NCBI GenBank assembly: GCA_009784625.1
Contig: WRBI01000005.1
Coordinates: forward strand, 1-64,000
DNA: 64,000 nt
DNA from: Oscillospiraceae bacterium
GTDB taxonomy: Bacteria; Bacillota; Clostridia; Oscillospirales; Ruminococcaceae
Reading direction: 5' to 3'
In this document: positions 1-19,659 of the stretch, piece after piece
How positions within the stretch are numbered: position 1 is the stretch's first letter
Layout: every line of letters begins with the position of its first letter
The notes under the pieces: generated by a model
What the model saw: only the letters and a program-made list of their open reading frames with translations
What the model was told of the DNA's origin: nothing
Databases searched by the model: none
Program-made: the position numbers and the translations under genes

Positions 1-112
1 TCCATCCCCAGGTTTTTGCGTGCTTTTTATTCCCTGCTCCTCTGCCCTCAGCTTTTCAACACCACTTCTTACTCTCACTTTTCTCGCTTTTTGATCCTGT
101 ACATAGTGTGAA

Positions 113-370
113 TACTAACATTTTATTAACGGGTGCGAACTCTTTGAACCGTATGTGAAAAACGTGCGGTATGGTAGGTCACAGGATTTTTGTGTTCCTG
201 AAGGGCATCTGTTTTTCTTAGGAGACAATCGGCCGTTTTCAATAGACTCCCGTTTTTGGGACAACCCTTATATGCCTATTGAAAATATAATAGCTCAAGC
301 GAGCTACACTATTCTACCAAGGATTACCTCCTTGGGTTTGGAGGAGAACTGTCAGCCACCCCACATCTAA
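113..370 (+). pseudogene. C-terminal remnant of type I signal peptidase (S26)
   Basis: Translation ...CELFEPYVKNVRYGRSQDFCVPEGHLFFLGDNRPFSIDSRFW... carries the SPase I C-terminal GDNRxxSxDSR box. An in-frame stop lies just upstream and the catalytic N-terminal half is absent. Confidence 0.6.
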
Positions 371-588
371 AGTTGGGGGCTTGTAAGAGCCCGGTTGACC
401 AGTCTAAGGTTTAAAGCTACGTTATTCAAGTCATGACACCTACGGATGCCTCCTCAGTTCGTAGCACACTGTCGTATCGGATTAAACAGTATCTTAGGGG
501 TAAGAAACAGTGTCCGATGCATAACAAGCTTGCGATAACATTGACGAGAGGATAATTACGGCTTCGGCCAGTACAGGAGAAATCCTAA
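345..588 (+). ncRNA. omega-RNA (HEARO) of the adjacent IscB
   Basis: Non-coding interval of about 240 nt directly 5' of iscB. Hairpin CCCCAC-atctaaa-GTtGGGG, TACG(441)/CGTA(463), ACACTGT(466-472)/ACAGTGT(507-513) interleaved with TCGGA/TCCGA (pseudoknot-like), and ggcttcggcc near the 3' end. Position and layout match known IscB omega-RNAs; boundaries approximate. Confidence 0.6.
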
Positions 589-3332: not shown

Positions 3333-3347
3333 GAACAAAAATACTGA

Positions 3348-3375
3348 AAGCCATCAACTGTGGCTTTCTTTTTTG
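3348..3375 (+). terminator. Rho-independent terminator after the 480-aa ORF
   Basis: AAAGCCatcaactgtGGCTTTcttttttt. Confidence 0.65.
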
Positions 3376-3421
3376 CAAAGCACTTACTTGAACGAGCGGC
3401 TGCCGATTTGATATAATTTAT

Positions 3422-3568
3422 ACATCTTAGTATTTTGATTTTAGGTTGTTGGCAAAGTAACAAGCAAAGCTCGTTCCACTTCGCCTTCGGCTCACGGTAA
3501 GGCATCACTGCCGGTATTTTATACATTCCGAGCATAATTACGTCTTTTGGCGTGATTATGCTTTTTTA
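3422..3568 (+). ncRNA. putative small RNA (copy 1 of duplicated intergenic cassette)
   Basis: TTGAAC-N18-TATAAT (3388-3417) upstream; ends in GCATAATtaCGTCttttGGCGtgATTATGCttttttatt. Shares TATAAT-N4-ACATCTTAGTATTTT with the 8662 locus. Confidence 0.4.
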
Positions 3569-3633
3569 TTGCTCAAAAACTACAAGCTTTGACTTGTTTA
3601 TATACAAACGTTTTTTGAAAGGAAGGTGATGAG

Positions 3634-3780
3634 GTGAAAGCAAATTATCCAGGCGCATACAAAAGAGGGAAGTTGACTGCTAAGGAAGAACGAGAGCTTC
3701 AAAAGGCTATCGTTCAAAATCTTGCTAAGCGCAACCCACTTTTTGCGGCCATGCTTACATGTCCCGGTTATGCAAAATAA
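3634..3780 (+). CDS. small hypothetical protein (48 aa)
   Basis: GTG start after GGAAGGTGATG; VKANYPGAYKRGKLTAKEERELQKAIVQNLAKRNPLFAAMLTCPGYAK. Confidence 0.45.
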   Translation: MKANYPGAYKRGKLTAKEERELQKAIVQNLAKRNPLFAAMLTCPGYAK

Positions 3781-4033
3781 AGAAGAAGAGGTGTTTTCAA
3801 TGACCAAAGGAATCAATGGGTTGTCCTCCCGAGAAACATCACGTATCAATGTATCATGATTACTGCTCATGGCCCCGTCTCTGAGGAATACACGTTCCCC
3901 GAAAGCATTCTCCATAAAAGTGTGTTTTTGACTTTTGAGGCGGCGGATTCGCTTAGAAAGCGTGGCCTTCGGGTTCGAGCATTTTCAACTGGTGAAGATG
4001 GCCTATAATTTTTTTTGAAAAGGAGATATCAAA

Positions 4034-5317
4034 ATGGAAAACGCAAGCTTTTTTCTCGGTAACGGTCAATGCTCTGCGGCGGCCAAAGTGAACTTTGTCG
4101 CAGGGATAGAGCATTTAGTACAAACAGCCAAAGGAGCCGACGGAGAGCGCAATTTGCAACTCTTCCCGGTGACTTCCCAACTGACCTGGTTCTGGGCCGT
4201 GCATCCTGAAGGGCGCATCTGTTCTCAGATTGTTTTTGAGGACGAGTACCGCGCCAGGGCGGAAGCGACCATATATGCCGCGAACGATAGGGTTCTTGCA
4301 ACAGCCTGCGGCTCTTGTATGGTGCATGACATACCATTCAAATACGTCGAAGCTGCCGAAACTGTGGCCATCCGACGCGCTCTGAACTTTGCCGGTTTCG
4401 GCTGCCAGCTGGTTGCAAAGGCATTTGAGGACGTTTCTGACATTGCAAATGAAAACCCTGCACCGGCGACTCCTACTGACAATGGAATGCCTCCTTTGCC
4501 ATCCGAAGTTCCGTCTTTAGCCTCTGAACCGGATAGCTTCAAGGCAAACAAGCTGGTAAGCACCGGTAACAATGCCAACGGCGAGGTTGAGGAAAAGCCG
4601 CGCAGGAAAAGAGGGGCTAAATCAGGGTCGGTTCCTGAGCCAACTGAGATTCCCTCTAATCAAGAAACCGGTACTTCCACCGAACCAGAGACGCCGCCTA
4701 CAACTGACAATGCTGAGCCGGAGACAATCACCACAACCTCTCCGACAGAGGATGAGCAGCAAGGGTCTGAAGCTGGTGAGCCCGATGTGAGTCCCGTGAC
4801 AACTGACCCGAACACCCGTGGTGAAGCTGGCGGTGAAGGTGAGGAAGCGCAACTGCAAGACACAACTACTTCTCCTGAAAACACAGAATCGGCGCCAATT
4901 GCTGATATAAGTGTTGAAAGCCAGGTGGCCGCGGCCGTTGCGTCTTCAGAAGAAATTGAACCGACAGCATTTGAACTGAAATGTATTGGCGGCAATTTTG
5001 TGCCTGGAGAGCTATATTTAAACAAGAAGGGTGGAGAGACAGGCGTGTTGCAAGGTGACCTTGTGAAAGCGCTTCGATTCTTCGGAACCAATCCCGAACT
5101 TGTAACTGAGACGGTGATGGAGGCAAACCAAGAGCACCTTGTGGACAAACCCCTAAAAGAACTTGCCGCTCATGGGACTTTGGGCTGGGAAGTGCTGCGT
5201 TCAATGCTCACTTTCTCTACCAGCTCAAATGTTGCGTTCATCGCCGCCATCCTGTTCTGGTACTACAACACTACTAAAGAAGCTTTTCCGGCGTTCGCAG
5301 TGCAAGCAGCTGCGTAA
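4034..5317 (+). CDS. Rad52/ERF-like ssDNA-annealing protein (tentative) with Ser/Thr/Glu/Pro-rich linker
   Basis: N-terminal ARAEATIYAANDRVLATACGSCMVHDIPFKYVEAAETVAIRRALNFAGFGCQ resembles the ETRAIGRAL-type motif of phage/ICE annealing proteins. Residues about 150-300 are low-complexity. Confidence 0.5.
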   Translation: MENASFFLGNGQCSAAAKVNFVAGIEHLVQTAKGADGERNLQLFPVTSQLTWFWAVHPEGRICSQIVFEDEYRARAEATIYAANDRVLATACGSCMVHDIPFKYVEAAETVAIRRALNFAGFGCQLVAKAFEDVSDIANENPAPATPTDNGMPPLPSEVPSLASEPDSFKANKLVSTGNNANGEVEEKPRRKRGAKSGSVPEPTEIPSNQETGTSTEPETPPTTDNAEPETITTTSPTEDEQQGSEAGEPDVSPVTTDPNTRGEAGGEGEEAQLQDTTTSPENTESAPIADISVESQVAAAVASSEEIEPTAFELKCIGGNFVPGELYLNKKGGETGVLQGDLVKALRFFGTNPELVTETVMEANQEHLVDKPLKELAAHGTLGWEVLRSMLTFSTSSNVAFIAAILFWYYNTTKEAFPAFAVQAAA

Positions 5318-5362
5318 CCTGTAATCGCTTTTTGAAAATATATTTCAGAGGAGGGCCCAGCC

Positions 5363-6703
5363 ATGTGGGATGAGTTCACCATATTTGACGTGATGTATCT
5401 TACTGGTCTGCCCACGGACAAAATGAGGTCTGCCTCTGGTGGGTACTACGAGTGTCCTGAATGTCGCAAAAAGGGTAAGTTTAAAATCAACCCCTCCATA
5501 AACAGCGGCGTAATCCGTTGCGCCGCCTGTACGGTAGGGGGAGATAAACTGGACCTTTATGTTCTGTGCTCAGGTATGCATTATACCCTTGTGACCGAAA
5601 CTTCAAGGTCAGGTAATCCCTACTTGCGTCCCTCCAGAGAGGATAGGAGCGAAGCTGCAAGGGAAATTGCTGAAAAAATGAGGATAGAGCGCAAGAGACC
5701 AGGGTTTGTAGAAAAAACCACCAAAATGCAGAAGCGAATGGAAGAAGCAGCTCAAAGAGCCTCAAACTCCACGCGAACCCCCCAGGAAAAGCACGAGGTA
5801 TACTCGGCGCTTCTGGAGATTCTCCCGCTGACCGACCGGCACAAAAGAGACCTACTGGCGAGAGGTTTAACAGAAGATGACATCTCGACAATAGGGTTCA
5901 AATCAGCCCCTCTCTTTGGTCAAGCTACGCTTACCAAAAAGCTGACAGATAAAGGGCTGTCTCTTGACGGGATAGCCGGCTTCTTTAAGCACGGTGAGTA
6001 TGTTGACAAAACAACTGGCGAGCTCATCGAAGAATGGAACCTCTTGTCAACAAATGCGGGGTATCTAATTCCGCTTCGGGACGAGAACGGTTACATTGTA
6101 TCGCTTCAAATCAGATTGAACGATACTAAGGTTGGTAAATGCATGTTTTTTACGAGCGATGTTGCAACCTTAGACTGCGGTACGAAAGCAGACTCAGTGG
6201 TTCACGTCGAAATGTGCAGTGAGCCGCCAAAATACCTGTATGTAACGGAAGGGGCAATCAAGGCTTATGTTGGCCACGCCCTGTACAAAGATTTGTTTGA
6301 GCGAGACGACGCCGTATTCCTTGCCGTGCCCGGAACGTCAAATATGGCCGGGATTCCTCATCTTATGGACCACTTCCTGTCTAAATACAATCTTGAACGC
6401 ATTGTGGAATTTTACGATTTCGGAAAATTTTACAGGGCGGACGCTGCTGAGTTGGATATGAGAGATTCAGAAGGTGAAGGCTTCGAAGCGCCAAACAAAA
6501 ACGTTGCAAGGGACCGCGACAATCTCGAAAGAATGCTCAGGGATTCTATGAGGAAGTGGCGAGCCAAACAAGCTGATAAGTACAAATCCGGTGAAATCTC
6601 ACCTCCTACTTTCACCTCGTTCCCCAAGAACAGGTACAAGGGTAAAGGGTTGGATGACCACTTGCTTGCAATAAAAAAAGAAAGAAAAAACAATTCTAAT
6701 TAA
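5363..6703 (+). CDS. primase-like protein: CHC2-type zinc finger plus TOPRIM-like region
   Basis: CPECRKKGKFKINPSINSGVIRCAAC zinc-ribbon at N-terminus; TOPRIM-like YLYVTEGAIKAYVGHAL...FLAVPGTSNM...IVEFYDFGKF. Confidence 0.7.
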   Translation: MWDEFTIFDVMYLTGLPTDKMRSASGGYYECPECRKKGKFKINPSINSGVIRCAACTVGGDKLDLYVLCSGMHYTLVTETSRSGNPYLRPSREDRSEAAREIAEKMRIERKRPGFVEKTTKMQKRMEEAAQRASNSTRTPQEKHEVYSALLEILPLTDRHKRDLLARGLTEDDISTIGFKSAPLFGQATLTKKLTDKGLSLDGIAGFFKHGEYVDKTTGELIEEWNLLSTNAGYLIPLRDENGYIVSLQIRLNDTKVGKCMFFTSDVATLDCGTKADSVVHVEMCSEPPKYLYVTEGAIKAYVGHALYKDLFERDDAVFLAVPGTSNMAGIPHLMDHFLSKYNLERIVEFYDFGKFYRADAAELDMRDSEGEGFEAPNKNVARDRDNLERMLRDSMRKWRAKQADKYKSGEISPPTFTSFPKNRYKGKGLDDHLLAIKKERKNNSN

Positions 6704-6717
6704 GGAGGAAGGCAACT

Positions 6718-8001
6718 ATGTCCAAAAAAGTCATAGGTACTTTTGAGTTTGATGAGGGGTTTATTAAGACCCTCAAGTTCATGAAGGGTTTCGTTGACCG
6801 GAAAAACAAAAACAACTCCATTGTGCGCGTCATCGCAGAGAATGGAAATCTTCTGGTCAGCCACTGCTCGATGGAAGCGATGGCAAGAAGGACGTTCCAA
6901 GGAGTATGTACAGGGACTTTTGACTTCAATATTGGAGCTGAAAGCCTTATAGCTTTACTTAATCACTTTAAGGTGGGTAAGGTTGATGTTTCCAAGAGTT
7001 TAATCCGCGTTGAAGACGCAACTGGCAATGAAGAACAAAGTCGTCCGCTGGCTGTTGACGGTCCTGTTTGGGATTTTCCCAGCTTTGACGGCATTGAGTT
7101 TAATCGACTGCCGGAAAACATATTTCGTGTGGCTGCCCAGTCCAGATATGCCGTTGACGACAAGAAGGACGAAGAGGAATCTACTTTCGCCCGAACCAAG
7201 ATTTCGATTTCTTTTGAGAAAGGCAAAGGAGTGGTTGTTGCTTCGTCCGGCTCACGCGCAATGTATGCGATTGGTGCCATTGATTATGATGGCACATCTG
7301 TTGAATATTTGATAAGCGAGTGGCTGGTTGATAGTCTTTCTAAGCTGTTTGCAAAGAACGCCGACATGGAAATTCTCGGCGCTGAGACGGCAAATAAGTA
7401 TCTCTTCAAAGTAGACGAAATAGAAATCGCTTTAGCAAAACCGGCAGAATCGTCTTTCAAGCCCAGCATAGAAAACGCAATTGAACGAATGAAGAGTCTA
7501 AGTTCAATGAGCGTTGAAATGCGGACCCAAGATGTGCTCCATTTTATCAAAGGTTCAATGCTTGAGGGCGGAAGAGCTGATAAAGTGGTCATGTATCTGG
7601 ATGCCAAAAGCAGCGTTGTTCGTGCAGAGCACGCACAAAATACCTATTACAATCTGCTTGCAGCTAAGTTCAGCGGTGTTCTCAAAGATAATATGGTCAT
7701 CGGGTTCAGCCCGGCCAATATGGAAGTGGCTTACAAGAGCATCAAAACTCCAACAACAATTCAAACTTTCATTTCTGACACAAGCCCTTCGTTCATAAAT
7801 GTTGAGTGGGAAAACTACTTAATTACCCACATCATCTTACCTCTGCGGCTTAATGAGTCGGTTTTTGAGGCGATTAGTTCATCTTCGAAGTGGGATAAGC
7901 TCAAAACGCCAGAACCTATTAACAAGCCGACAGAAACGACACCAACGACCTCGCCTGCGCCTGAATTTGAAGCTGGCGAGTCGCCGGAAATTTTGTTTTA
8001 G
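6718..8001 (+). CDS. divergent DnaN-like (Pol III beta) sliding clamp of the element
   Basis: Clamp-like order: ISFEKGKGVVVASSGSRAMYAIGAI (position of the TDGHRLA-like motif) and C-terminal VIGFSPANMEVAYKSI...SPSFINVEWENYLITHIILPLRLNES, resembling the clamp C-terminal ...lImPmRL end. Confidence 0.65.
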   Translation: MSKKVIGTFEFDEGFIKTLKFMKGFVDRKNKNNSIVRVIAENGNLLVSHCSMEAMARRTFQGVCTGTFDFNIGAESLIALLNHFKVGKVDVSKSLIRVEDATGNEEQSRPLAVDGPVWDFPSFDGIEFNRLPENIFRVAAQSRYAVDDKKDEEESTFARTKISISFEKGKGVVVASSGSRAMYAIGAIDYDGTSVEYLISEWLVDSLSKLFAKNADMEILGAETANKYLFKVDEIEIALAKPAESSFKPSIENAIERMKSLSSMSVEMRTQDVLHFIKGSMLEGGRADKVVMYLDAKSSVVRAEHAQNTYYNLLAAKFSGVLKDNMVIGFSPANMEVAYKSIKTPTTIQTFISDTSPSFINVEWENYLITHIILPLRLNESVFEAISSSSKWDKLKTPEPINKPTETTPTTSPAPEFEAGESPEILF

Positions 8002-8010
8002 CTCCGAAAC

Positions 8011-8038
8011 CGGAAGAGTGGCCATTGCCACTCTTCCT
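8011..8038 (+). terminator. intercistronic hairpin (attenuator/terminator candidate)
   Basis: GGAAGAGTGGC-catt-GCCACTCTTCC followed by a pyrimidine-rich tract. Confidence 0.5.
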
Positions 8039-8066
8039 CTTACATACCAAACGAGGAGGGAACCAC

Positions 8067-8618
8067 TTGCAAGACTTGAAGCTGTATAGCATGGCAGACC
8101 GTATGCAGATTTCAAAGACAGGAGTTTCTGTTGTCGAAGATTATTTGCGCAGTGTTTCCCGTGTTATCAAAGTGTTTAACCTTGAAGAACATCAGAAGTA
8201 CCAGAAAGCTGATATAGATATAGCGGTTATCACTCTCAATGATGGTGTCGTCGGATTTGAGACAATTGAAATCAAAACAGATACCTACAAGACAGGTAAT
8301 TTATACTTTGAGACGGTCAGCTGTATTGAAAAAGAAACGCCTGGTTGTCTAATGTATTCCGAAGCGGATTATCTCTATTATTATTTCGTGCAGACAACGG
8401 AATTGTACGTTATGAATATGAAGATGTTCCGGGAATGGGTTATAAAGAATCGTAACAGCTTTGTAGTGAAGAATACATCAACCAAACTATTTGGTGAAGC
8501 AGGCCGGTATACATCTGAGGGTTTGCTTGTTCCGCTGTGGAAAATTAGAAAAAACTTTAAACTCTTTGAAGGCCAGGTAATTCTGCTCCGTGATGACGAT
8601 AAACAAGCGGTAATATAG
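8067..8618 (+). CDS. PD-(D/E)XK nuclease-like hypothetical protein
   Basis: TTG start after GAGGAGGG; YQKADIDIAVITLNDGVVGFETIEIKTDTYKTGNLYFE has the D-x(n)-ExK arrangement. Confidence 0.5.
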   Translation: MQDLKLYSMADRMQISKTGVSVVEDYLRSVSRVIKVFNLEEHQKYQKADIDIAVITLNDGVVGFETIEIKTDTYKTGNLYFETVSCIEKETPGCLMYSEADYLYYYFVQTTELYVMNMKMFREWVIKNRNSFVVKNTSTKLFGEAGRYTSEGLLVPLWKIRKNFKLFEGQVILLRDDDKQAVI

Positions 8619-8661
8619 CGCACTTGGTTGATTTATCTATGTATTCTTTCTTATAATAAAA

Positions 8662-8790
8662 ACATCTTAGTATTTTTTGTTTTACAGCGTAGCTGAACGG
8701 TAAGATTTGAAGTTCGTTTGTCAAATCGGTTGTTTTCTATATTTGAGGCATAGGTGCATCTTCACAAAAGGTGTATTTATGCTTTTTGTA
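8662..8790 (+). ncRNA. putative small RNA (copy 2 of duplicated intergenic cassette)
   Basis: TTGATT-N18-TATAAT (8628-8657) upstream, identical ACATCTTAGTATTTT start; ends in hairpin GCATAggtGCATCTTcacaAAGGTGTatttATGCtttttg. Confidence 0.4.
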
Positions 8791-8797
8791 TTTACAA

Positions 8798-8876
8798 ACC
8801 AGCCTCCTTAACTTATAGGAACGCGAAGAGGTATGACTCTTTGGGTTCCTTTTCTGTTAACAGGCTGGTGTGCTTT
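8798..8876. other. nested stem-loop element
   Basis: ACCAGCCT(8798)/AGGCTGGT(8862), AGGAAC(8817)/GTTCCT(8845), AAGAG(8826)/CTCTT(8837): three nested perfect helices. Confidence 0.5.
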
Positions 8877-8960
8877 TGTAGTCATTTGCCTTTTGATAAT
8901 TCATCAAGCTGAGGCTTGTTTATATATAAGTGCTTAATAAAAAGAAACGAGGTGACCGCC

Positions 8961-9296
8961 GTGAGTAGCTACAGACGCAATCGCGCAAGCAAGCCAGTTG
9001 CGTGTAAGTATTGCGGAAAACTAATCAGATTTTTACCTAATGGAATCCCTGTCAGCCCAGACGGTAAATACTATCGCCCTTCTTGTGGCGGTAGAGAAAC
9101 TTCATATCTCATGTCCAACGGAAAGGAAAACAGCGGGGTGGTAGCCTCGGATGGGATTCTTGGGTATATGAGGCATTCTTGCGCCCCACAAACGCCAACA
9201 AAGCGACCGTGCGTTGTTATAGCCAACGAGAAACATGTGCTCGCCGGCGAACAGATTTCGCTATTCAAAAATAATTATAGGGTGGTAGCATTATGA
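8961..9296 (+). CDS. small zinc-finger-like hypothetical protein
   Basis: GTG start; CKYCGKLI..., element context. Confidence 0.5.
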   Translation: MSSYRRNRASKPVACKYCGKLIRFLPNGIPVSPDGKYYRPSCGGRETSYLMSNGKENSGVVASDGILGYMRHSCAPQTPTKRPCVVIANEKHVLAGEQISLFKNNYRVVAL

Positions 9297-9508
9297 CTTA
9301 CTTCAACACGAAGCAAATTGGCAAGGCATTTGAAAGCTGTTTGGGAGAAAGCCGCAGCTTCGAAAATGACCATTATGGCGCTTCATGTGCCAGGCTAACC
9401 GCAGCGTCAATTTTTTCTGAAGATTCTTTTTTTGATGAATGCTGTCTTTCGTTTGCTGCTAAGAATGGACAGTTTTCCCTTTTTGAAGAGGATGCCGTAC
9501 TCTCATAG
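9293..9508 (+). CDS. small hypothetical protein
   Basis: 71 aa, start overlaps the previous stop; followed by a terminator. Confidence 0.45.
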   Translation: MTYFNTKQIGKAFESCLGESRSFENDHYGASCARLTAASIFSEDSFFDECCLSFAAKNGQFSLFEEDAVLS

Positions 9509-9520
9509 CACTTAATCTGA

Positions 9521-9560
9521 AGCAAGCTCCCTCGTAAAATACGAGAGGGCTTGTTTTTTT
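9521..9560 (+). terminator. Rho-independent terminator
   Basis: AAGCtCCCTCGTAaaaTACGAGAGGGCTTgttttttt. Confidence 0.8.
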
Positions 9561-9640
9561 GTGCTCAAAGTAGCCTGGTTGCAACTCGGCGTACTTTTGA
9601 CTATATATAAGATAGATTCCTATAGAAAGGAGGCGCCGCG

Positions 9641-10486
9641 TTGAAAAGCTCTAAAATTGAGTTTTGTACAGATTCATGGAACCCTGTGACAGGATGCTTG
9701 TACGACTGCCCATACTGTTATGCGAAAAGTATTGCTCACAGATATGGCGGCCACAAAACTCTCGAATACTACATGGCCTTGGAAAGGCCGATTGACACGT
9801 CTGTCTTTCGGGTTCTCGAAACGCCTGTCTTAAACGAACTCAATCGTCAAAAAGAAAGCTACCCGTTTCTGTTTGCGCCGACGTATGAGCGGTATCGGCA
9901 CGATGAGTTTGACAGGGCCGCCCGCAAAGCCCCTGGGAATGTCTTCGTATGCTGTATGGGAGATTTGTTTGGCTCATGGATTGAATCGTGGGTTATTGAG
10001 GAGGTTTTCGAGAGGGTTCTTGGTGCGAAGAAGCACAACTACCTCTTTTTGACAAAAAATCCATCCCGGTATGATGAACTTACTTTTCTCCCTGGCGGAA
10101 TACGTCCTGATAACATGTATTTTGGTGCCACTATCGACTCGCAGGGGATGGCAAAGAGCATTCTGGAAAAGCAGATTGAGCGACTTAATTTCCTTTGCAT
10201 TGAGCCGATTCTCACGGCAGTGGATTTGGGAGAGTTTTTGGACTATTCTCCTGGAAAAATCGAGTGGGTGATTCTTGGCGCTGAGAACGGTAATCGGAAG
10301 GGAAAAGTTGTCCCAAAAACAGCTTGGTTACAGCACGTCTCAACAGTGTGCAAATCGCGTGGCATCCCTTTATTTATGAAAAGAGGGCATACACCAGCCG
10401 GGAAGCTTTCTTTACTCGAAAAGGCACTTGGAGTAGATTTCAGGCAAGAATACCCGGCATCTCTCGCTAAAAACGCACTTGCTTGA
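9641..10486 (+). CDS. DUF5131 / phage Gp37-Gp68 family protein (CX3CX2C, radical-SAM-like)
   Basis: IEFCTDSWNPVTGCLYDCPYCYAKSIAHRYGG, ...NYLFLTKNPSRYDEL..., ...WVILGAENG.... Confidence 0.8.
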   Translation: MKSSKIEFCTDSWNPVTGCLYDCPYCYAKSIAHRYGGHKTLEYYMALERPIDTSVFRVLETPVLNELNRQKESYPFLFAPTYERYRHDEFDRAARKAPGNVFVCCMGDLFGSWIESWVIEEVFERVLGAKKHNYLFLTKNPSRYDELTFLPGGIRPDNMYFGATIDSQGMAKSILEKQIERLNFLCIEPILTAVDLGEFLDYSPGKIEWVILGAENGNRKGKVVPKTAWLQHVSTVCKSRGIPLFMKRGHTPAGKLSLLEKALGVDFRQEYPASLAKNALA

Positions 10487-10583
10487 TTCTTCGCTCGTAC
10501 CTCAGTTAAAATTTTTATACTACCTCACTCTCAAAAGAAAGGAGGGCGCGGCATCCGTAAAGTGGTTGCTGCGCTACTGGCGC

Positions 10584-11534
10584 ATGGAAACCAACAAGCC
10601 TGTTATTATCGCGGTTGACACCGGCAATAAGCTGATTAAAACAGTGAACACCAGTTTTGTGGCCGGGATAGAGCAAATCCCCGAGTCTCTCAAAGCGTTA
10701 TCTAACCCCATGGACACAATTCATTACAATGGAGACGCATATTCCATCGGACTCTCGCGGACATTGTGGGAACGCGACAAAACCAAGAATTCTACTTATC
10801 TCATTCTCACTCTTCTCGCGGTCGCTAAAGAAATAGCGTTTCGGAAGCTGCCGACAGAATTAGACGTCGTTTTGGTTATCGGGCTTCCTCCGGGTCATCT
10901 GCGCGAAGAAACAATCGTTGAAAAGTACCGGAAATACTACCTCAGCAACGGAGGTGAGTATCGCTTTCTTTGCGGTGACAAGAGGCACCGCGTGAAAGTC
11001 AAAGATGTCATCGTGTGTCCTCAGAACTACTCTGCCGTTATGACCCTGAGTGAATCAATTGTAATGTTACCGAGCCTCTATCTTATCGACATCGGTGGCG
11101 GCACGAGCGACACTGTTCACTTCGAGTATTCAAAGTCAGACAATAGGGAAGTTTCTCTTGACTTGGGCGTGATTGTTATGTACTCTGAAGTGACGAAAAA
11201 ATTGGACGCCAAATTTGGCCGTAAAATTTCCGAGACTAAGGTTGACGACATCCTTCTGCGTGGGGACTACACCCATTACGATGCTGAACACATCCAACTC
11301 GTCCACGATGTGGCTGAACAACACATCCGCACGATTTTGGGCAAGCACAAAGATTTAGGGATGGATTTGGCGTCTGCACACGTTGTGTTCCTGGGCGGCG
11401 GGTCGATGTTGCTTAAAAAGCAAATCCAAGCAGTGGCAAGCGAGTTCTGCGGCGGATTGGCTGTTCTGAACGACATTCACGCCAATGCGAAAGGTTATGA
11501 GTTGTTCGCAAGAATTAAGCTCGCAAGTGTTTAA
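10584..11534 (+). CDS. ParM/Alp-type actin-like plasmid segregation ATPase
   Basis: IIAVDTGNKLIKT (phosphate-1), LYLIDIGGGTSDTVHF (phosphate-2), VVFLGGGSMLLKKQI (adenosine). Start uncertain; the ORF is open from 10479. Confidence 0.8.
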   Translation: METNKPVIIAVDTGNKLIKTVNTSFVAGIEQIPESLKALSNPMDTIHYNGDAYSIGLSRTLWERDKTKNSTYLILTLLAVAKEIAFRKLPTELDVVLVIGLPPGHLREETIVEKYRKYYLSNGGEYRFLCGDKRHRVKVKDVIVCPQNYSAVMTLSESIVMLPSLYLIDIGGGTSDTVHFEYSKSDNREVSLDLGVIVMYSEVTKKLDAKFGRKISETKVDDILLRGDYTHYDAEHIQLVHDVAEQHIRTILGKHKDLGMDLASAHVVFLGGGSMLLKKQIQAVASEFCGGLAVLNDIHANAKGYELFARIKLASV

Positions 11535-11551
11535 GTTGGGTGGTGTTCTGC

Positions 11552-12061
11552 GTGAATAAGGCTGCCGAAGCAAAAGATGCCCGCCGCAAAAACTTACACT
11601 TCAAGCCCGAAGGGAAAAGTCCGATTCACGATGCCGCCGTAAGCGTCTTGAATCAGCTCGGCCGCGGCGGAGCAAATGACTTTGTTGCAGCGGCGGTTGT
11701 ATACTTCTCTTACTGTCAGTCTCAAGGCATCATCCCCAACGATTTTTTTGAAGCGTTTGGAGGAGGCTCTTTTCGCCCCACAAAAGTCGTGTTTGTTGGC
11801 GGGCCACCCGGGACGACTCACACACCTTCGCCCCCTGTAAAGCCCACTCTTTATGACAGGAAAGAGGAAATCGAGAGGGGAGATGATGGTGCTCAAATAA
11901 AAACACCTGACAGAAGTGGGAAAAGAAGTGTTGAAGGAGACGTATCGCCTCTTCCAAGCGCGGAGGAGATAACCCCCGATACTGACGACGGATTTATCAT
12001 TGGCACGGCTGAGTCAAGCTTGCCGATGGACCTCATGAAAAAGCTTGTCCATAATTTCTAA
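11552..12061 (+). CDS. ParR-like adaptor candidate
   Basis: Directly downstream of the ParM-like gene; N-terminal HDAAVSVLNQLGRGGANDFVAAAVVYFSY resembles ParR-type ribbon-helix-helix; acidic/disordered C-terminus. Confidence 0.55.
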   Translation: MNKAAEAKDARRKNLHFKPEGKSPIHDAAVSVLNQLGRGGANDFVAAAVVYFSYCQSQGIIPNDFFEAFGGGSFRPTKVVFVGGPPGTTHTPSPPVKPTLYDRKEEIERGDDGAQIKTPDRSGKRSVEGDVSPLPSAEEITPDTDDGFIIGTAESSLPMDLMKKLVHNF

Positions 12062-12062
12062 A

Positions 12063-12092
12063 AAAGAGAGGGGAAAGCACCCCTCTCTTTTC
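12063..12092. terminator. bidirectional terminator between convergent genes
   Basis: aaaaAGAGAGGGGaaagcaCCCCTCTCTttt. Confidence 0.85.
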
Positions 12093-12096
12093 GCTG

Positions 12097-12612
12097 TTAA
12101 AACTTGTTGCAGTAAATATATATGGGTTCAACATCATAGCCTCTTTGCTTTAATGAGAATATCTTGAAATCTAAAAGTGCTTCATCTACATATAGCATCC
12201 GAGCCATTTGCAATAAATCATACTCTTCTGAAGCGAGAAGTTCTAAAATCTCATCATCATCTAAGAGTAGTTCAGAAGCAAATAAATTCGCCTCGTATTC
12301 AAGGGTAGACCGCAACATTGAAAACGGCTTCTTGTCAAAGAACAAATCCTGGTTTCTATGTAGTTGGTCATGCCCAATCTCGTGTGCAATCAAGAACCGA
12401 AGCTCCTCGTCGCTAACTCCGTCTGAAACAACTATATTTCGAGTAGTCCCAACACGGCAATAATATGCATTGAACCGCTCCGACAATTCGTGGCGATGTA
12501 AACATATCCCTGTTCGATTACATAAGAGGATAGGGCTACTCGTATCAAACTCTGTAGTTAGGCCCATCACTAAGGAATGTATTATGTCAGGTGTCCTTGA
12601 ATTGAGTGACAT
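12097..12612 (-). CDS. ImmA/IrrE-type metallopeptidase
   Basis: HExxH in FLIAHEIGHDQLHRN, followed by YEANLFASELLL. Confidence 0.85.
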   Translation of the reverse strand: MSLNSRTPDIIHSLVMGLTTEFDTSSPILLCNRTGICLHRHELSERFNAYYCRVGTTRNIVVSDGVSDEELRFLIAHEIGHDQLHRNQDLFFDKKPFSMLRSTLEYEANLFASELLLDDDEILELLASEEYDLLQMARMLYVDEALLDFKIFSLKQRGYDVEPIYIYCNKF

Positions 12613-12621
12613 ATCAAGATG

Positions 12622-13029
12622 TCACCTCCCTTTTTCTTTGGTGCTCATAAACACCGAAAGTAGTGAACGCTCAAGTGTTTCTTGTGCCGAGTCATCTAAA
12701 GTGCCGCCCTCAAACAAAACGAGGCCGTTCGAGAGTAGCTCCTTAGCTTCATCAACCGCATCGCTGCCATATCTCTTTTCTATTTCTTCAAAAAAGATTT
12801 CCTTCTCTGGCTTCCCTCGAACATCCCGGTCTTCATCCATCGCAAGATAACCAGCACTTACTCCCAGTGATTCCGCCAGCTTATTGTATACTTCTATGGA
12901 TTTGGGCTTTGCCTTCCCTGACTCGTAAGTATAAAGTGTTTTGGTAGTCAAGTCAGTTATACTCGCCAGCCTCTCTCTGCTTATCCCCAATGCTTTCCTT
13001 GCTGCAAGAATTTTCTCTGAAAACTCCAC
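12622..13029 (-). CDS. XRE-family transcriptional repressor (ImmR/cI-like)
   Basis: N-terminal HTH ILAARKALGISRERLASITDLTTKTLYTYESGKAKPKS; next to the ImmA-like gene. Confidence 0.85.
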   Translation of the reverse strand: MEFSEKILAARKALGISRERLASITDLTTKTLYTYESGKAKPKSIEVYNKLAESLGVSAGYLAMDEDRDVRGKPEKEIFFEEIEKRYGSDAVDEAKELLSNGLVLFEGGTLDDSAQETLERSLLSVFMSTKEKGR

Positions 13030-13094
13030 GTTAACACCCTCTCACAATTTCCAATATATTACAAATTACTAGAAAAATATTTTCCATTTAACTA

Positions 13095-13123
13095 TTGACA
13101 AGCTAGTGACCTGGATGTATAAT
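13095..13123 (+). promoter_or_regulatory. perfect consensus sigma70 promoter, rightward
   Basis: TTGACA (13095-13100) - 17 nt - TATAAT (13118-13123). Confidence 0.85.
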
Positions 13124-13177
13124 GGCCGAAACAGGTAGTTGACTACCGGTAGTTGACTACCTGTTTCGGCCATTATA
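13118..13177. repeat. 60-bp near-perfect palindrome between convergent promoters
   Basis: tataatggccgaaacaggtagt-tgactaccggtagttg-actacctgtttcggccattata; 22-bp perfect arms plus central actaccggtagt. Confidence 0.95.
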
Positions 13178-13200
13178 CTTCATGCATCATTATTTGTCAA
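13172..13200 (-). promoter_or_regulatory. perfect consensus sigma70 promoter, leftward (toward the XRE repressor)
   Basis: Reverse strand TTGACA (13200-13195) - 17 nt - TATAAT (13177-13172). Confidence 0.85.
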
Positions 13201-13600
13201 GTTGAATTTCTGCTATTGTGGTTTTGGACACAGCCCTATTAATTAGCGCTTTAATTTCTGTATATGCGTCAAGGTCTTCAGACTGTAAAAGGCGTAATTC
13301 AGAGATGAGCTGACATTCTGCGTTCGTTAGGTAACTGGGTGTGAGTCTTCGAATCATCTCCATTGGTATTTGTTCTTTTAAAGATTGCTTGAAATCTTCG
13401 ACAGATATTCCGAATCCGTCAGCAAGCTTTTCTAAAGTGATATCCTTGGCTGTATGCAACATATCTTGAGAAGCCAGACGGGAAACGTGGTAGTACCCCA
13501 GCGACGGAATCCTCGTTTTAATAAAACTGCTTAAATCTTTGCATCCAACTTGATTGGCAAGGATTCTTACAATGTGAGATTGCCTGCTCGTATTTTTCAT
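13190..13600 (-). CDS. XRE/HTH-like regulator
   Basis: 136 aa; GYYHVSRLASQDMLHTAKDITLEKLADGFGISVEDFKQSL resembles a cI/Cro-type HTH. Confidence 0.55.
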   Translation of the reverse strand: MKNTSRQSHIVRILANQVGCKDLSSFIKTRIPSLGYYHVSRLASQDMLHTAKDITLEKLADGFGISVEDFKQSLKEQIPMEMIRRLTPSYLTNAECQLISELRLLQSEDLDAYTEIKALINRAVSKTTIAEIQLDK

Positions 13601-13615
13601 AGTAAAGCCTCACTT

Positions 13616-13666
13616 TCACTTGTACATGTGATTGTATCACTTTAAGCTTCGAAGTGCAAGATAAAA
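13616..13666 (-). promoter_or_regulatory. leftward promoter with overlapping operator-like dyad
   Basis: Reverse strand TTGCAC-N17-TACAAT; dyad TCACttGTACatGTGA at 13616-13631. Confidence 0.55.
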
Positions 13667-13717
13667 ACGCAAATGCATGTGATTTTTTTAGCTTTAATTG
13701 TGTCTTAGAGCACTTCG

Positions 13718-13746
13718 TTGACATCCTTTGCAAATCCATTTATACT
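13718..13746 (+). promoter_or_regulatory. near-consensus promoter upstream of the large structured RNA candidate
   Basis: TTGACA (13718-13723) - 17 nt - TATACT (13741-13746). Confidence 0.75.
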
Positions 13747-13751
13747 TAATT

Positions 13752-14380
13752 TTAAGCAATATAATAGCCACACTTGCTCTTGAAAGGGAATGTCTCGCTT
13801 GAAATAATCGCAAATGCGATTGCGATTCTAGGCTCGCGCCGTGACTTTGCAGGTGCTAACTTACAGCCCTTGCGCTATATTAGAATCAGAGCTGTGTGTT
13901 GGCGAAAAAAACACATCAAATAATCGCATAGCTAACCTTGATATCTACCTCTGCTTTTAGAGGATGATATATGCCGTCACTAGACGGAAGATGCACATTG
14001 AAAAAGAACCCGGGATGCGGGGAGTATAATCCTGCCAAATGAAACCCCCTTTAAACGTATGTGGCGTCTGTCGCATACGCAGCGAGCGACCATGGGGATT
14101 GCTACGTTGAGCTGAGACCATCGGAGTAACGATGCGAGCCATAGAGAGCTTTCCTAAGCGCGTCAATTCAAGCCCGCGTTTTGCTACGACCTGATAAGGG
14201 GCATAATAATACTTCTGCCTAGAAGCCTGCGGCTTGGGCAGCCTGTCGACGAATAACAGGGTCTCTGGGAATCCGATGAGCGAAAGCGATAAGTCGGCTC
14301 ACAGACATGTGACTGGTGGTTGGCGTCACCTAGCATTTTGGCAAGCCCGCATCCCGGGGTAATGAGATTAAATAGGGTGC
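13752..14380 (+). ncRNA. candidate large ornate structured non-coding RNA (about 600 nt)
   Basis: No credible ORF on either strand; promoter directly upstream; many local helices plus perfect 13-bp long-range pairing 14009-14021 / 14346-14358 (CCCGGGATGCGGG / CCCGCATCCCGGG). Confidence 0.65.
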
Positions 14381-14415
14381 ATCAATCGTTTATTAATTTT
14401 GCTTTTATCATCATT

Positions 14416-14509
14416 TTGGTGATAGATAGGGCGGCGAAGAGAACCGGCAAGAAATGAGAAATCAACCAAACACCGGAGAAAAAACTTCGCCGCCTCATTG
14501 TGTCACCAA
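14416..14509 (+). promoter_or_regulatory. long interrupted stem-loop in the leader of the 352-aa ORF
   Basis: TTGGTGA(14416)/TCACCAA(14503), GGCGGCGAAG(14430)/CTTCGCCGCC(14485), CCGG(14444)/CCGG(14473). Confidence 0.6.
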
Positions 14510-14556
14510 TTGACTCACTAATTGTATCACTTGAACGAAAGGAGGAGATTTTCACC

Positions 14557-15612
14557 GTGGCTACCGCAAGAAGCAAAAACATGGCAGTGCGGATTTCTAA
14601 AGGAATTGAAGAATGCTGCAAACAAATTGTTAAGCAAGCAAAGATTCATGGGTTAGAAGTGTGCTTGGAAAAATCAATGACTTTGATTCCGCTGACCGAT
14701 GCACGGCAAAATAACACAATATACTTGGACAGAGAGGATTTGTATGAAAAAGTGGTTTCCGCACTTGCGCAGGACCTTGTAGTTCCAGGCGGAGTAAGGC
14801 CGCTCATTTTTGTTGTTGAAGATAAGAGCGAGGCACTAGCTCTTTCGGTGTCTCTAAATACAATATCTTTGGCAGCCGGCGCAGCAAAGGGCGCAAAACT
14901 AGGGTCTCCTCTGATTAGAAAGCCGGACGCGGCTTATGTTTGCCAGAAAAGAATCAAGGCATTTCAACATAATAAAGAACAATCGCAAGGAAGCCGCAGC
15001 AATAAAGTCCCACATGAGCTGTCTGCAAAAATGTGTGATGGGGATAACTGCTCAACCGGTGTCCGCTGCGCTTACAAGGAAATGAAAAGAGTACTTAGCA
15101 GTGGTAGGATTACATTCCAGATTTATACCGAGGAGCTTTATATAAAAGCACTGAGGACAAAATTGATTCCGTTACGGGCTATTGTTTTTGGCGCAGAACC
15201 AGAAACAACATTATTTCGCCGACATGTATTACTGTCACTCCAGGAAACAGACTTTCTTAACTATTCAAGGTTCAGCTATAGCTTTTGCGGAGGAAACAAT
15301 AAATACAAGAAAGCAAAAAAGCTTGCCTTGCGGTTTGAAAGTGTATCTCGGGCGCTGTTCGACAACTTATACTCCTCGAAAGTAGACCAACCCAACGCCG
15401 CATTGTCGCTCGTAGAACTCCTGACCCTTGCAAAGAATATAAACGAAAGCACCGATGGAAAGCTCTTGAATCAATATGCTTGGCAGACGCTTCACAAAAA
15501 ACTCTTAGCGTCAATTCCAAGAATACTTGAGTATGATACCCCTTTTGGCAATATCGACGTTGATAAGAGCCGTAGAGTTGTTGTTCTTCATATCAAAGCA
15601 CCGATAAATTAA
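14557..15612 (+). CDS. hypothetical protein of the mobile element
   Basis: GTG start with AAAGGAGGAG; no family recognised. Confidence 0.6.
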   Translation: MATARSKNMAVRISKGIEECCKQIVKQAKIHGLEVCLEKSMTLIPLTDARQNNTIYLDREDLYEKVVSALAQDLVVPGGVRPLIFVVEDKSEALALSVSLNTISLAAGAAKGAKLGSPLIRKPDAAYVCQKRIKAFQHNKEQSQGSRSNKVPHELSAKMCDGDNCSTGVRCAYKEMKRVLSSGRITFQIYTEELYIKALRTKLIPLRAIVFGAEPETTLFRRHVLLSLQETDFLNYSRFSYSFCGGNNKYKKAKKLALRFESVSRALFDNLYSSKVDQPNAALSLVELLTLAKNINESTDGKLLNQYAWQTLHKKLLASIPRILEYDTPFGNIDVDKSRRVVVLHIKAPIN

Positions 15613-15737
15613 CTTCGGTTTGCTTTGCTCAATCTAAAAAACATTTTTTCTAACGAAGATGTCATGAAAGGGCGGTTCGGGCATGAGGAGAGCAGGGATT
15701 CTATAGCGCTGTATGCAAATGAAATTCGCTGGAAAAT

Positions 15738-15770
15738 TGAAAGCAGTCTCTTCGGAGGCTGTTTTTAATT
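15738..15770 (+). terminator. Rho-independent terminator
   Basis: AGCAGTCTCTTCGGAGGCTGTTTTT. Confidence 0.7.
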
Positions 15771-15913
15771 TTGAAAATAATCATTGGCTAAGCCATAAAA
15801 ATGCGATATAATCTATAATGCGTGCAATGCAATATTGTAGAACGGAATAAAGCTGAAAGGAGATTGTTCTGCATTACGAATATGGCTGCCTTGATATGAA
15901 ATGAGGTTAAAAC

Positions 15914-16105
15914 ATGAGCATCAATCAAGTTGAGTCTAAAAAGTTAGTATATACGGTCAAAGAGGTTTCTGAGATGTTAGGGTTGAGCTTGCGTTCGACC
16001 TACAATCTTTGCAATGACCAAAAGGATTTCAAAGTGCTCCGGTTAGGCGAAAAATCTATCCGAGTTAACAAGGAATCTTTTGATAACTGGTTTTTAGGCT
16101 TATAA
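15914..16105 (+). CDS. excisionase / helix-turn-helix DNA-binding protein
   Basis: 63 aa, LVYTVKEVSEMLGLSLRSTYNLCND...LRLGEKSIRVNKESFDNWF, upstream of integrase. Confidence 0.8.
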   Translation: MSINQVESKKLVYTVKEVSEMLGLSLRSTYNLCNDQKDFKVLRLGEKSIRVNKESFDNWFLGL

Positions 16106-16123
16106 CTGAACGGAGGAATCATT

Positions 16124-17563
16124 TTGGCATCCATAATTAAACGTGGAAAAACATATTCTGTTGTTTTCTACGCAAAAGACGAAGAGGGCGTAAGCAAACA
16201 AGTGTGGGAAAGTGGATTATCCCACAAGGAAGCAAAAGCTCGCAAGCTGGAAATTGAGTCCAGAAAACTCGATGGTACATTTGCTAACCCCACCAAGCTC
16301 ACAGTAGGGGCGTATCTTGAAGAGTGGTTAAGCTATTACAAAAAGAAAGGCAATGCTTATTCGACCTGCACAATGGTTGAAGGTATTTTGCGCAATCACA
16401 TTATCCCGACGTTTGGCGAAAAGAAACTTCAAGAATTAACTTCGAAAGAAGCGGAAGACTTTTTTCTTGATTTAAAACAAACGCGCCATGCGAAAGGCAA
16501 TTACAGGTATACCTTGTACAGTGATAATGAACTGCCGTTTTTGTCAAAGAACACCATCCGACATATCTATATCTATTTCAACATGGCACTTAATAAGGCG
16601 GTTGAGTGGAAGTACATAGCTGGCAACCCAATCACTTTTGACCCGCCGGAATCGGAGTCTAACCACCGTGTGGCATGGGACGAGGAAACTCTTTTAGCGG
16701 CTTTAGATGAAGTGAAGGACCCAATGCTACACCTTTGCTTGCATCTGGCTTTTGTCGGTTCCATGCGGTCCGGCGAAATCTCCGGGTTAACATGGGATTG
16801 CGTCAACTGGCAAGAAGAGAACATGACAATTAATAAAATTGTCCAACGGGTGAAGAAAAGAGACTTGGACTACTCTCCAGATAACCCACCGCTACTGGTT
16901 TTCCCCAACGCAATTGGCACTCGTGAAACCGATGACATTAAAAGCTGCCTTATCCTTAAAGGACCAAAGACTCCAAAGAGCAGACGTGCAATTTACATGA
17001 CCGGACCCCTAAAACAGGAATTGCTCAAGCGATGGCAATTGGTCAGTAAGCGAATGGCTGTGCTTGATGAAGAGTACCATAATCACAATCTTGTAGTCTG
17101 CTTAGAGGACGGCAGACCTGTCGAACCTAAACTGATTGCCAAGTGGTTCAAACTCTTCATCAAAAAGCATGGTGGAGTATTCCCCGACGTAACACTCCAC
17201 AGCCTGCGGGCCACCAGCACTACTTACAAGCTGGTGTTGAGTCACGGGGACATCAAAGCTGTACAAGGGGATACCGGCCATGCGAACGCCAAGATGGTTA
17301 CCGACATCTATGCCAAGATTCAAGACAAGAATCGAAAGAAGATGGCCCAAGCGTTGGAAAAGGATTTCTACAAAAATCAGCCAGCACAGACAACGCCGGC
17401 AATAAAGAGCGAAGTGGATGTTGCCAACCATATGCTTCTGCTCAAAAAGCTGGTTGAAAATCCACAGGGGTTAGAAATTCTGCTTGCCACCCTTGGCCAA
17501 CCCGTGGAAAACCACCCGAGCGCGTCCGAGTGTGGTATTAGCAAAGTATTAGCAAACGACTAA
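16124..17563 (+). CDS. tyrosine recombinase/integrase
   Basis: R...HxLR...H/W...Y catalytic layout: GSMRSGEISGLTW, TLHSLRATSTTYKL, GDTGHANAKMVTDIYA; N-terminal AP2-like arm and SAM-like domain. Confidence 0.95.
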   Translation: MASIIKRGKTYSVVFYAKDEEGVSKQVWESGLSHKEAKARKLEIESRKLDGTFANPTKLTVGAYLEEWLSYYKKKGNAYSTCTMVEGILRNHIIPTFGEKKLQELTSKEAEDFFLDLKQTRHAKGNYRYTLYSDNELPFLSKNTIRHIYIYFNMALNKAVEWKYIAGNPITFDPPESESNHRVAWDEETLLAALDEVKDPMLHLCLHLAFVGSMRSGEISGLTWDCVNWQEENMTINKIVQRVKKRDLDYSPDNPPLLVFPNAIGTRETDDIKSCLILKGPKTPKSRRAIYMTGPLKQELLKRWQLVSKRMAVLDEEYHNHNLVVCLEDGRPVEPKLIAKWFKLFIKKHGGVFPDVTLHSLRATSTTYKLVLSHGDIKAVQGDTGHANAKMVTDIYAKIQDKNRKKMAQALEKDFYKNQPAQTTPAIKSEVDVANHMLLLKKLVENPQGLEILLATLGQPVENHPSASECGISKVLAND

Positions 17564-17642
17564 GCGGTAGCGAGAAGGTACAGTGGCATAAATCACGGAA
17601 AGCGGGTATTTTCGATGACTGATGACCAGCAAAGAAAAAGAA

Positions 17643-17675
17643 AAAACCCGGTATCATTGATACCGAGTTTTTCCC
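17643..17675. terminator. terminator downstream of integrase
   Basis: aaaaacCCGGTATCattGATACCGagttttt. Confidence 0.8.
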
Positions 17676-17696
17676 ACAACAAAGCCATTTTCTTGG

Positions 17697-17770
17697 CGCG
17701 CTGGAAGGGATTCGAACCCCTGACCCCTTGATTCGTAGTCAAGTACTCTATCCAACTGAGCTACCAGCGC
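17697..17770 (-). tRNA. tRNA-Arg(ACG), CCA encoded at 17694-17696
   Basis: Reverse complement GCGCTGGTAGCTCAGTTGGATAGAGTACTTGACTACGAATCAAGGGGTCAGGGGTTCGAATCCCTTCCAGCGCG; anticodon ACG. Confidence 0.95.
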
Positions 17771-17810
17771 AAATTTTCAAAACAACCTTGTTTTTGCAGG
17801 GAGTGCATTA

Positions 17811-17849
17811 TTCGTAGTCAGACACTCTATCCAACTGAGCTACAAGCGC
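17811..17849 (-). pseudogene. 5'-half tRNA-Arg fragment
   Basis: Reverse complement GCGCTTGTAGCTCAGTTGGATAGAGTGTCTGACTACGAA, similar to the intact tRNA up to the anticodon loop, then diverges. Confidence 0.8.
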
Positions 17850-18126
17850 AAAGTCCGGACAACTCCCATACTATACCATCAACCACGAAAAAAGTCAATA
17901 GCTGAAAATATTATTTGACAAGTTATCGCGACGTGTGTTAGTGTGATAGTACACTAGTGTATATTGGCGACTCACCTGTAATCTTGAAAAAATAATAATC
18001 TGTTCACAGTTTGGTTATAATTTAAAGTTACAATAATTAACTGTACTATCTTTACTAGTGCGCTTTGCCCGCGTTGGGGCTAAAGTGATAAAATAAACTG
18101 TTTGTGCGCGATTACGGAGGCTTGCG

Positions 18127-19659
18127 ATGATGAAAAAAGGTGTAAAGCTAAAAATTCTCAGCCTGAGTTTGGCGGCTGTTCTGGCGGTTTCAGGCTGCAT
18201 TGCTGCCGGGGCGGCGGATGTGGAGGAGGAGCCGGCACAGGTCGGCACAGCTGTCGAAACATCTTTCTTAGGGCGGACAACCATCCGCAGTGAACTGACT
18301 TATATCGGGCAGATTCAACCGCAGAGAACCATCAACGTTGCGAGTATGATTACCGCCGAAGTCACTGCCGTCCACTTTAATATCGGTGATTCGGTTGAGG
18401 AAGGCGATATCCTGTTTACGGTGGACGCGACCGATATTCAAAACAACATCCGCCAAATCAACGCGGCGGCCCAGCTCGCGAACATTGGGGTGGAATCGGC
18501 GCAGCACCAGCTTGAACAGGCCGAAATCCAGCAGCAAATGCAGGATATCCAGCAGGAGATCGCGCTGCAACAGGCCGCTACCGCAGCCGCGTCGGCCGCG
18601 CAGCAACTGGAAACCGCCAACCAGCAGCACAGGCTCTTTCGAGACTATAATCACGACGCACTCAGAGACATAGCAGACGAGCGCCGCGAACTAAACCGGG
18701 AAATCCGGGATCTGACCCGCGGCCATCACAGGGACGAGTACATTTATAACCGCAACCGACCGGAGCGCTTTGATCCGGGTTTGGCCCGTGAGTACGAGGC
18801 TCTGCGCGCCATGATGCGGCCGCTGGACGCGGCGGCGTTCGAAATCGAAAGGGCGCAGGAGACGCTTCAAAACGCCCAGCGGCTGGCGGAAATCTCACAG
18901 GATATGGCTGAGTTTTCTTTTGAATCGGCCGAGGGCGTACACGACATTTATCTTCAAAATAATCGGGATCAAGTTCAGATAATGGCCGAGTTCGGCCTGC
19001 AAACCGCTCAAGCGCAGCTGGCAAGCACACAGGCGCAGATGTCGACTGCGCGGACCAACCTGAACCGCGCAACCGTCACCAGCCCGATCTCCGGGGTGGT
19101 CAGCGGCCGGACAGTCGAAGTCGGGCAGATGGCCTCGCCGTCATTCCCGCCCTTTACCATTGTAGAGATCGACACGGTTGTCGTACAGGTCAGCGTGTCC
19201 GAATCCCTGATCAACCGGGTATACGTTGGCCAGGAAGTGGATGTGGTCATCCAGGCTCTGGACGGTGAAACTTCTTTGACCGGAACGGTCACCATCGTCT
19301 CGCCGATCGCCGCGGCGACCAGCACATTCCCCATTCGGGTCGAGCTGGACAACGCTGACGGCCGGATCCGCCCGGGGATGTTCTCACAGGTCACCTTTGT
19401 CGAAGCCCAGCGGGAAAACACGTTCGTTGTGCCCAAAAACGTGGTACAAACCGACGAGCAGGGCGAGTTTGTCTTTGTGGTGCGGGACGGCTATGCGGTG
19501 CGCACAAATGTCCGCACCGGAATGGAAACCGGCAACGAGATCGAAATCCTGAGCGGGATCAGCGAAACCGACCAGATCGTAACCGTCGGCCAGGAGTTCC
19601 TTGAAGACGGCGAGCTGGTCAACGTGGTGGCCATCGATGGCCGGCGGGTAAGCGGGTAA
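18127..19659 (+). CDS. RND efflux periplasmic-adaptor (HlyD/MFP) subunit, lipoprotein
   Basis: Lipobox LAVSGC; biotinyl-lipoyl-like halves and beta-barrel; upstream of the RND pump. Confidence 0.9.
   Translation: MMKKGVKLKILSLSLAAVLAVSGCIAAGAADVEEEPAQVGTAVETSFLGRTTIRSELTYIGQIQPQRTINVASMITAEVTAVHFNIGDSVEEGDILFTVDATDIQNNIRQINAAAQLANIGVESAQHQLEQAEIQQQMQDIQQEIALQQAATAAASAAQQLETANQQHRLFRDYNHDALRDIADERRELNREIRDLTRGHHRDEYIYNRNRPERFDPGLAREYEALRAMMRPLDAAAFEIERAQETLQNAQRLAEISQDMAEFSFESAEGVHDIYLQNNRDQVQIMAEFGLQTAQAQLASTQAQMSTARTNLNRATVTSPISGVVSGRTVEVGQMASPSFPPFTIVEIDTVVVQVSVSESLINRVYVGQEVDVVIQALDGETSLTGTVTIVSPIAAATSTFPIRVELDNADGRIRPGMFSQVTFVEAQRENTFVVPKNVVQTDEQGEFVFVVRDGYAVRTNVRTGMETGNEIEILSGISETDQIVTVGQEFLEDGELVNVVAIDGRRVSG

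Follow-up and report, generated by a model that had tools for sequence, protein, structure and literature searches.

We found that the window (the whole stretch of 64,000 nucleotides that was analysed) contains a structured RNA at 13996-14360. With a probability of roughly 0.7, this RNA is a divergent member of the canT/pemK/dinG class and an antiterminator leading an operon that consists of an open reading frame (ORF), an excisionase gene (xis), and an integrase gene (int). Sequence and covarying structure together give good support for membership in the class, although this copy is divergent. A processive antiterminator function is probable, judging from its relatives. The features of the region are as follows.

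13718-13746, plus strand: predicted sigma-70-type promoter TTGACA-N17-TATACT, 11 of 12 consensus matches, predicted start near 13752
13752-13995, plus strand: 5' leader extension with several local hairpins
13996-14008, plus strand: degenerate box CATTGAAAAAGAA at the boxA position, immediately 5' of helix PA; it keeps TTGAAAA (13998-14004) and is otherwise degenerate
14009-14358, plus strand: closing helix PA, CCCGGGATGCGGG (14009-14021) with CCCGCATCCCGGG (14346-14358), enclosing the whole conserved domain; mean pair probability 0.97; its equivalent covaries in homologues
14046-14201, plus strand: long-range helix P0, CCCCTT (14046-14051) with AAGGGG (14196-14201), closing the upstream domain; an equivalent is present in homologues
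14100-14278, plus strand: core region found by covariance models R1 and R2, neither of which was built with the window
14203-14215, plus strand: most conserved motif of the family, window version ATAATAATACTTC (family version ATAATGATACTTC)
14215-14260, plus strand: hairpins P5 (CTGCCTA/TGGGCAG with nested AGCC/GGCT) and P6 (CCTGT/ACAGG); pair probabilities 0.91-0.96, covariation in homologues
14429-14496, plus strand: strong 11-bp hairpin without a U-tract between the RNA and the 351-aa ORF, like hairpins at the same place in relatives L012 and L130 (fold z -5.4, -3.6, and -5.3)
14557-15612, plus strand: 351-aa Cys-containing orphan protein, with homologues of 20-26% identity after the RNA in L012 and L130
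15914-16105, plus strand: HTH_17 excisionase-like protein (Pfam E 3.7e-9)
16124-17563, plus strand: tyrosine integrase (Pfam E 4.4e-13)

A sequence-only reading of this DNA had described a promoter opening a gap with no credible ORF, and had proposed for the gap a large structured RNA of about 600 nt within a Firmicute mobile element. The promoter is present, with the -35 hexamer TTGACA at 13718-13723 and the -10 hexamer TATACT at 13741-13746 separated by a 17-nt spacer, and it ranks among the three best promoter-like sites within 1-18200. The gap is indeed free of credible ORFs: the longest has 79 aa, and all those of at least 60 aa are on the minus strand. Each helix listed in that reading was located at its position or a few bases away. 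Compared with shuffled sequences, the fold z is -2.8 for 13752-14400, -3.2 for 13996-14360, and -1.6 for 13752-13995; thus the structural excess is located in the 3' part. The leader 13752-13995 has no significant structural excess, has no homologue by DNA comparison or covariance models, and there is no support for counting it in the conserved RNA. Of the proposal, the structured RNA in a mobile element stands and the size does not: good support is confined to the 3' ~365 nt (13996-14360) and does not extend to the full 600 nt. The reverse strand of 13752-14400 folds equally well (z -3.3). Since both strands fold better than shuffles, folding energy alone cannot pick the strand, and homology picks it.

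No part of the gap reaches the cutoff of any Rfam family. At relaxed thresholds, dinG (RF03082, 23.2 bits) and pemK (RF02913, 21.0 bits) match the same bases, 14203-14306, and the window fails the gathering scores of both (46.9 for dinG, 34.8 for pemK). All three fit the block AATRATACTTCYGC..GCRGCC. A match to skipping-rope RNA (16.7 bits, cutoff 36.7) is probably due to chance. When the gap was compared by BLASTN with phages, plasmids, and 299 genomes of the family, only matches of chance length came up.

Relatives were gathered by a DNA pattern scan of viral contigs and by family searches of whole genomes. A version of the pattern with AATAAT gave chance matches in coding DNA, and the AATGAT version recovered the family; a repeat-type protein gene picked up by the latter was discarded as a chance match. 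The relatives share a common layout: the box CTTGAAAACTGAATA and a closing helix come first, next a domain carrying CGCCA-GAC and GAGCGA, and after it ATAATGATACTTC, two hairpins, and GGTGAAATTCCTATG. The matches of Rfam pemK and those of dinG both belong to this covariance family. We built two models, R1 from 19 relatives and R2 from 38, leaving the window and Tn916 out of both. R1 has one significant match in the window, at 14100-14278 (26.6 bits; the next best has 7.7 bits), and R2 has its only credible match there (34.5 bits), with E-values of 1.1e-5 and 3.9e-7, respectively, that are rough owing to a short calibration. In the 2.6-Mb genome, the window match is the sole match of R2 (E 1.6e-5, equally rough). 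The models detected the RNA family in 72 of 199 genomes from the order and in 25 of 250 from the phylum, which indicates RNA-based antitermination at the head of many mobile-element operons.

Within the leader, boxA-like TTGCTCTTGAAAGGGAAT near 13775 and GCGCCGTGAC near 13836 (13775-13845) look like pieces of a second canT domain. We rejected a second canT-like domain in 13752-13995, as neither R1 nor R2 matches there.

Covariation was assessed on 77 distinct aligned sequences by comparison with shuffled and one-column-shifted alignments. The proportion of paired cells was 90.4% vs 61.1% after shuffling, and there were 749 cells with double changes vs 254; 26 of the 31 pairs show double changes. 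Sliding by one column reduced pairing to ~40%. The alignment was fitted to the model and hence favours pairing; the gaps to the slid and shuffled controls are nonetheless large. The covariation takes in G-U pairs and follows an RNA structure.

The helix PA, which the sequence-only reading had noticed as a perfect 13-bp long-range pair closing a 3' domain, corresponds to the closing helix of the family. One of 200 dinucleotide shuffles attained a perfect pair of this length, which makes it only moderately unusual by itself. The same reading had staked its RNA on covariation of this helix in homologues, and the helix does covary there. With fixed anchors and the partner not optimised, 15 of 25 loci form at least 7 of 8 pairs in the best register, vs 9% of mismatched pairs; in a free search the threshold was reached by 42 of 57 homologues vs 10.8% of cross-pairs. 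For P0, a free search gave at least 7 weighted pairs in 34 of 57 homologues vs 3.7% of cross-pairs. The equivalents of both helices covary in homologues, Tn916 included. PA and P0 are outside R1 and R2, yet their window copies sit at the family positions of these helices. Helix P1 in the window copy has several non-canonical pairs, and the single-sequence fold of the window favours a different pairing around 14118-14185.

Of 79 relatives, 58 carry the family box TTGAAAACTGAATA close to the core, compared with 6 among 590 control windows. A nearly identical sequence precedes 16S and recurs in the 16S-23S spacer in the two genomes examined (G133 and G051, one of them from the genus of the window), and these are the places where boxA is expected. 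In antitermination complexes of Escherichia coli, S10 and NusB bind boxA. The tie to a boxA-like rRNA site opens the mechanism to direct tests. The family box lies ~17 nt 5' of the closing helix; TTGAAAA of the window is only 11 nt before PA, and the role of the box here is uncertain because of its degeneracy.

The sequence-only reading had left it to Rfam and homologues whether the RNA belongs to a known class. The relatives proved to be dinG and pemK RNAs together with canT of Tn916, an operon-leader antiterminator. The conjugation-associated antiterminator canT, through which excised Tn916 is able to turn its genes on, is a 452-bp region in the orf8-xis interval of Tn916 demonstrated experimentally by Wirachman and Grossman, and the fragment comprises 126-577 nt after orf8 (PMC11658703). 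It makes RNA polymerase read through terminators of Tn916 and foreign ones, and it is orientation-specific, cis-acting, processive, most likely an RNA, and located downstream of a promoter (PMC11658703). Its authors called reading single-sequence structure predictions complicated and took the structure no further (PMC11658703). Both R1 and R2, built without Tn916, match its orf8-xis interval (locus L096) at 76.1 and 82.6 bits, and Rfam pemK matches it at 55 bits (cutoff 34.8); the region matched by all three is the published canT fragment. Thus canT gains a structure supported by covariation, and the comparison points to a testable role for the Rfam families pemK and dinG, which we found catalogued without a demonstrated mechanism. 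Among the papers searched, none connects canT with pemK or dinG.

The mutation S3 of Tn916 changes ATA to TGC 283 nt after orf8 (PMC11658703). The altered letters are the first three bases of ATAATGATACTCCC (L096:2038), i.e., of the most conserved motif of the family, whose window counterpart is at 14203. S3 abolished activity in the 452-bp canT fragment, and a 400-bp fragment with S3 stayed active (PMC11658703). Therefore the role of the motif is not absolute, and the coincidence is suggestive only.

The genomic position of the RNA is upstream of xis and int, as in Tn916, with one orphan ORF intervening. The 351-aa product of this ORF has no Pfam or PHROG family at E<=0.1; as a query it returned nothing in viral contigs or genome contigs and one relative with 22% identity in the family genomes. 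In L012 and L130, a weak RNA match lies beside a homologue of the orphan ORF, and L012 also has a canonical box. As it is encoded after the RNA in each of three elements, the Cys-containing protein might act as a partner, much like ConAn1 of pLS20. At L130:10674-11000, the RNA core is joined to a truncated primase-like gene (the counterpart of window 5363-6703), probably a deletion junction. The relatives head excisionase, recombinase, PemK, and ParA operons: among 95 downstream ORFs scanned there are 22 resolvases, 16 PemK toxins, 13 ParA ATPases, nine HTH_17 proteins, and seven integrases. A subgroup (L075, L072, L073, and similar loci) lies directly before ParA-led operons, in some cases near tRNA-synthetase genes. 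Sigma-70 region 4 was found in 24 of 62 upstream ORFs of relatives, and the window has no sigma-like gene upstream of the RNA.

Several other sites were recorded. An inverted repeat GAAGTGC/GCACTTC (13649-13716) adjoins the -35 box of the RNA promoter, opposite a divergent HTH gene (13190-13600), and is a possible operator. Two promoter-like sites with 12 of 12 matches (TTGACA-N17-TATAAT; plus strand at 13095, minus strand at 13200) face each other and share a 48-nt palindrome, GGCCGAAACAGGTAGTTGAC..., beside HTH and ImmA-like genes; this arrangement resembles an operator or a hairpin leader. Behind a full tRNA-Arg (17694-17770, minus strand) lies a second, partial copy of the 5' half (~17810-17850), which is probably a scar left by integration. 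No left attachment repeat was found: the sole full copy of the tRNA end in the genome is that at 17695, and the window starts at a contig end. The credible genes of the left end (4034-12061) are rightward, and a terminator-like site with a 15-bp stem is present at 3530-3563, comparable to insulator T1 of Tn916.

On the antiterminator reading, transcription from 13718-13746 would produce a leader with the boxA-like site, then a ~350-nt domain closed by the 13-bp helix. The folded nascent RNA would stay with RNA polymerase, and rRNA-type Nus factors would be recruited at the box. The RNA-bound polymerase would become resistant to terminators and read through ORF-xis-int. Once the element is circular, the polymerase would run past int, across the joined ends, and into the rightward left-end genes. 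That this copy is active, that boxA has this role, and that circularisation is needed are our inferences. A broader proposal, to which we would give even odds, is that pemK RNA, dinG RNA, and canT of Tn916 form one phylum-wide antiterminator class, each combining an rRNA-type boxA with a ~300-nt domain that long-range helices close. On this view, mobile elements would reuse the antitermination machinery of ribosomal operons via RNA, and the window would be an outlying branch with its own promoter and a conserved orphan protein, maybe a partner.

The RNA lies directly upstream of an ORF, from which it is separated by a strong hairpin, and the Rfam type label of pemK is 'Cis-reg'; these points suit a local cis-regulator of the next gene, such as an attenuator, a riboswitch, or translational control. 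We consider this explanation unlikely. In a simple scan of the 430 nt downstream, just 2 of 72 relatives had an intrinsic terminator, which counts against a local attenuator. Moreover, the first genes of the relatives are mutually unrelated, and canT works processively on distant and foreign terminators (PMC11658703). It is rather improbable that the window holds a decaying canT-type copy whose function has been lost. The low model score, the degenerate box, some broken pairs, and the fusion of the related L130 copy to a truncated gene point that way, but the 13-bp PA, P0, P5, and P6 have remained intact, the promoter departs little from consensus, and the neighbouring element genes keep open frames.

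The sequence-only reading had likened the RNA to giant RNAs of the ROOL/GOLLD type. For a free-standing giant ncRNA of the ROOL/GOLLD/OLE kind that works as an RNA complex speak the size, the promoter, and the mobile-element setting, and ROOL, GOLLD, and OLE are likewise big structured RNAs of Firmicutes and mobile elements, but covariance models gave no giant-RNA match from Rfam at E<=10 (13600-14560; 13960-14400), the homology to canT/pemK/dinG is clear, and no terminator ends the RNA before the operon; we regard this reading as very improbable. HEARO, another class named for checking, has its sole window match elsewhere, at 351-559. This HEARO RNA (141 bits) is directly upstream of an ORF for an HNH protein (589-1893), a known IsrB/IscB-type arrangement. 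The long inverted repeats within a mobile element could also belong to a DNA site (a transfer origin or an attachment site) rather than to an RNA. The chance of this is negligible in our view, given that covariation with G-U pairs tracks an RNA structure and that in Tn916 the homologue works in one orientation only, in cis, and downstream of a promoter (PMC11658703).

Among known systems, the conAn2 RNA of pLS20 (PMC8955417) and the EAR and put RNAs are likewise RNA elements near operon heads that give processive antitermination; conAn also uses the protein ConAn1 as a processivity factor (PMC8955417). R2 has no match in pLS20, and a search of that plasmid detected no sequence relation to conAn2, whose own sequence was not located. 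Rfam pemK and dinG share with the window the core ATAATGATACTTC-P5-P6 block, and both models match it weakly at the same bases. These models span just 61 and 87 positions, respectively, whereas the full conserved unit, with the box, PA, and P0-P3, is several-fold longer. The window differs from canT in that its sequence is distant, the RNA has a promoter of its own and 240 extra nt at the 5' end, the box is weak, an additional orphan ORF precedes xis, and no sigma-like gene lies upstream. It resembles canT in covariance-model homology, in equivalents of PA and P0, in the ATAAT-ATACT-C motif, and in its site upstream of xis-int.
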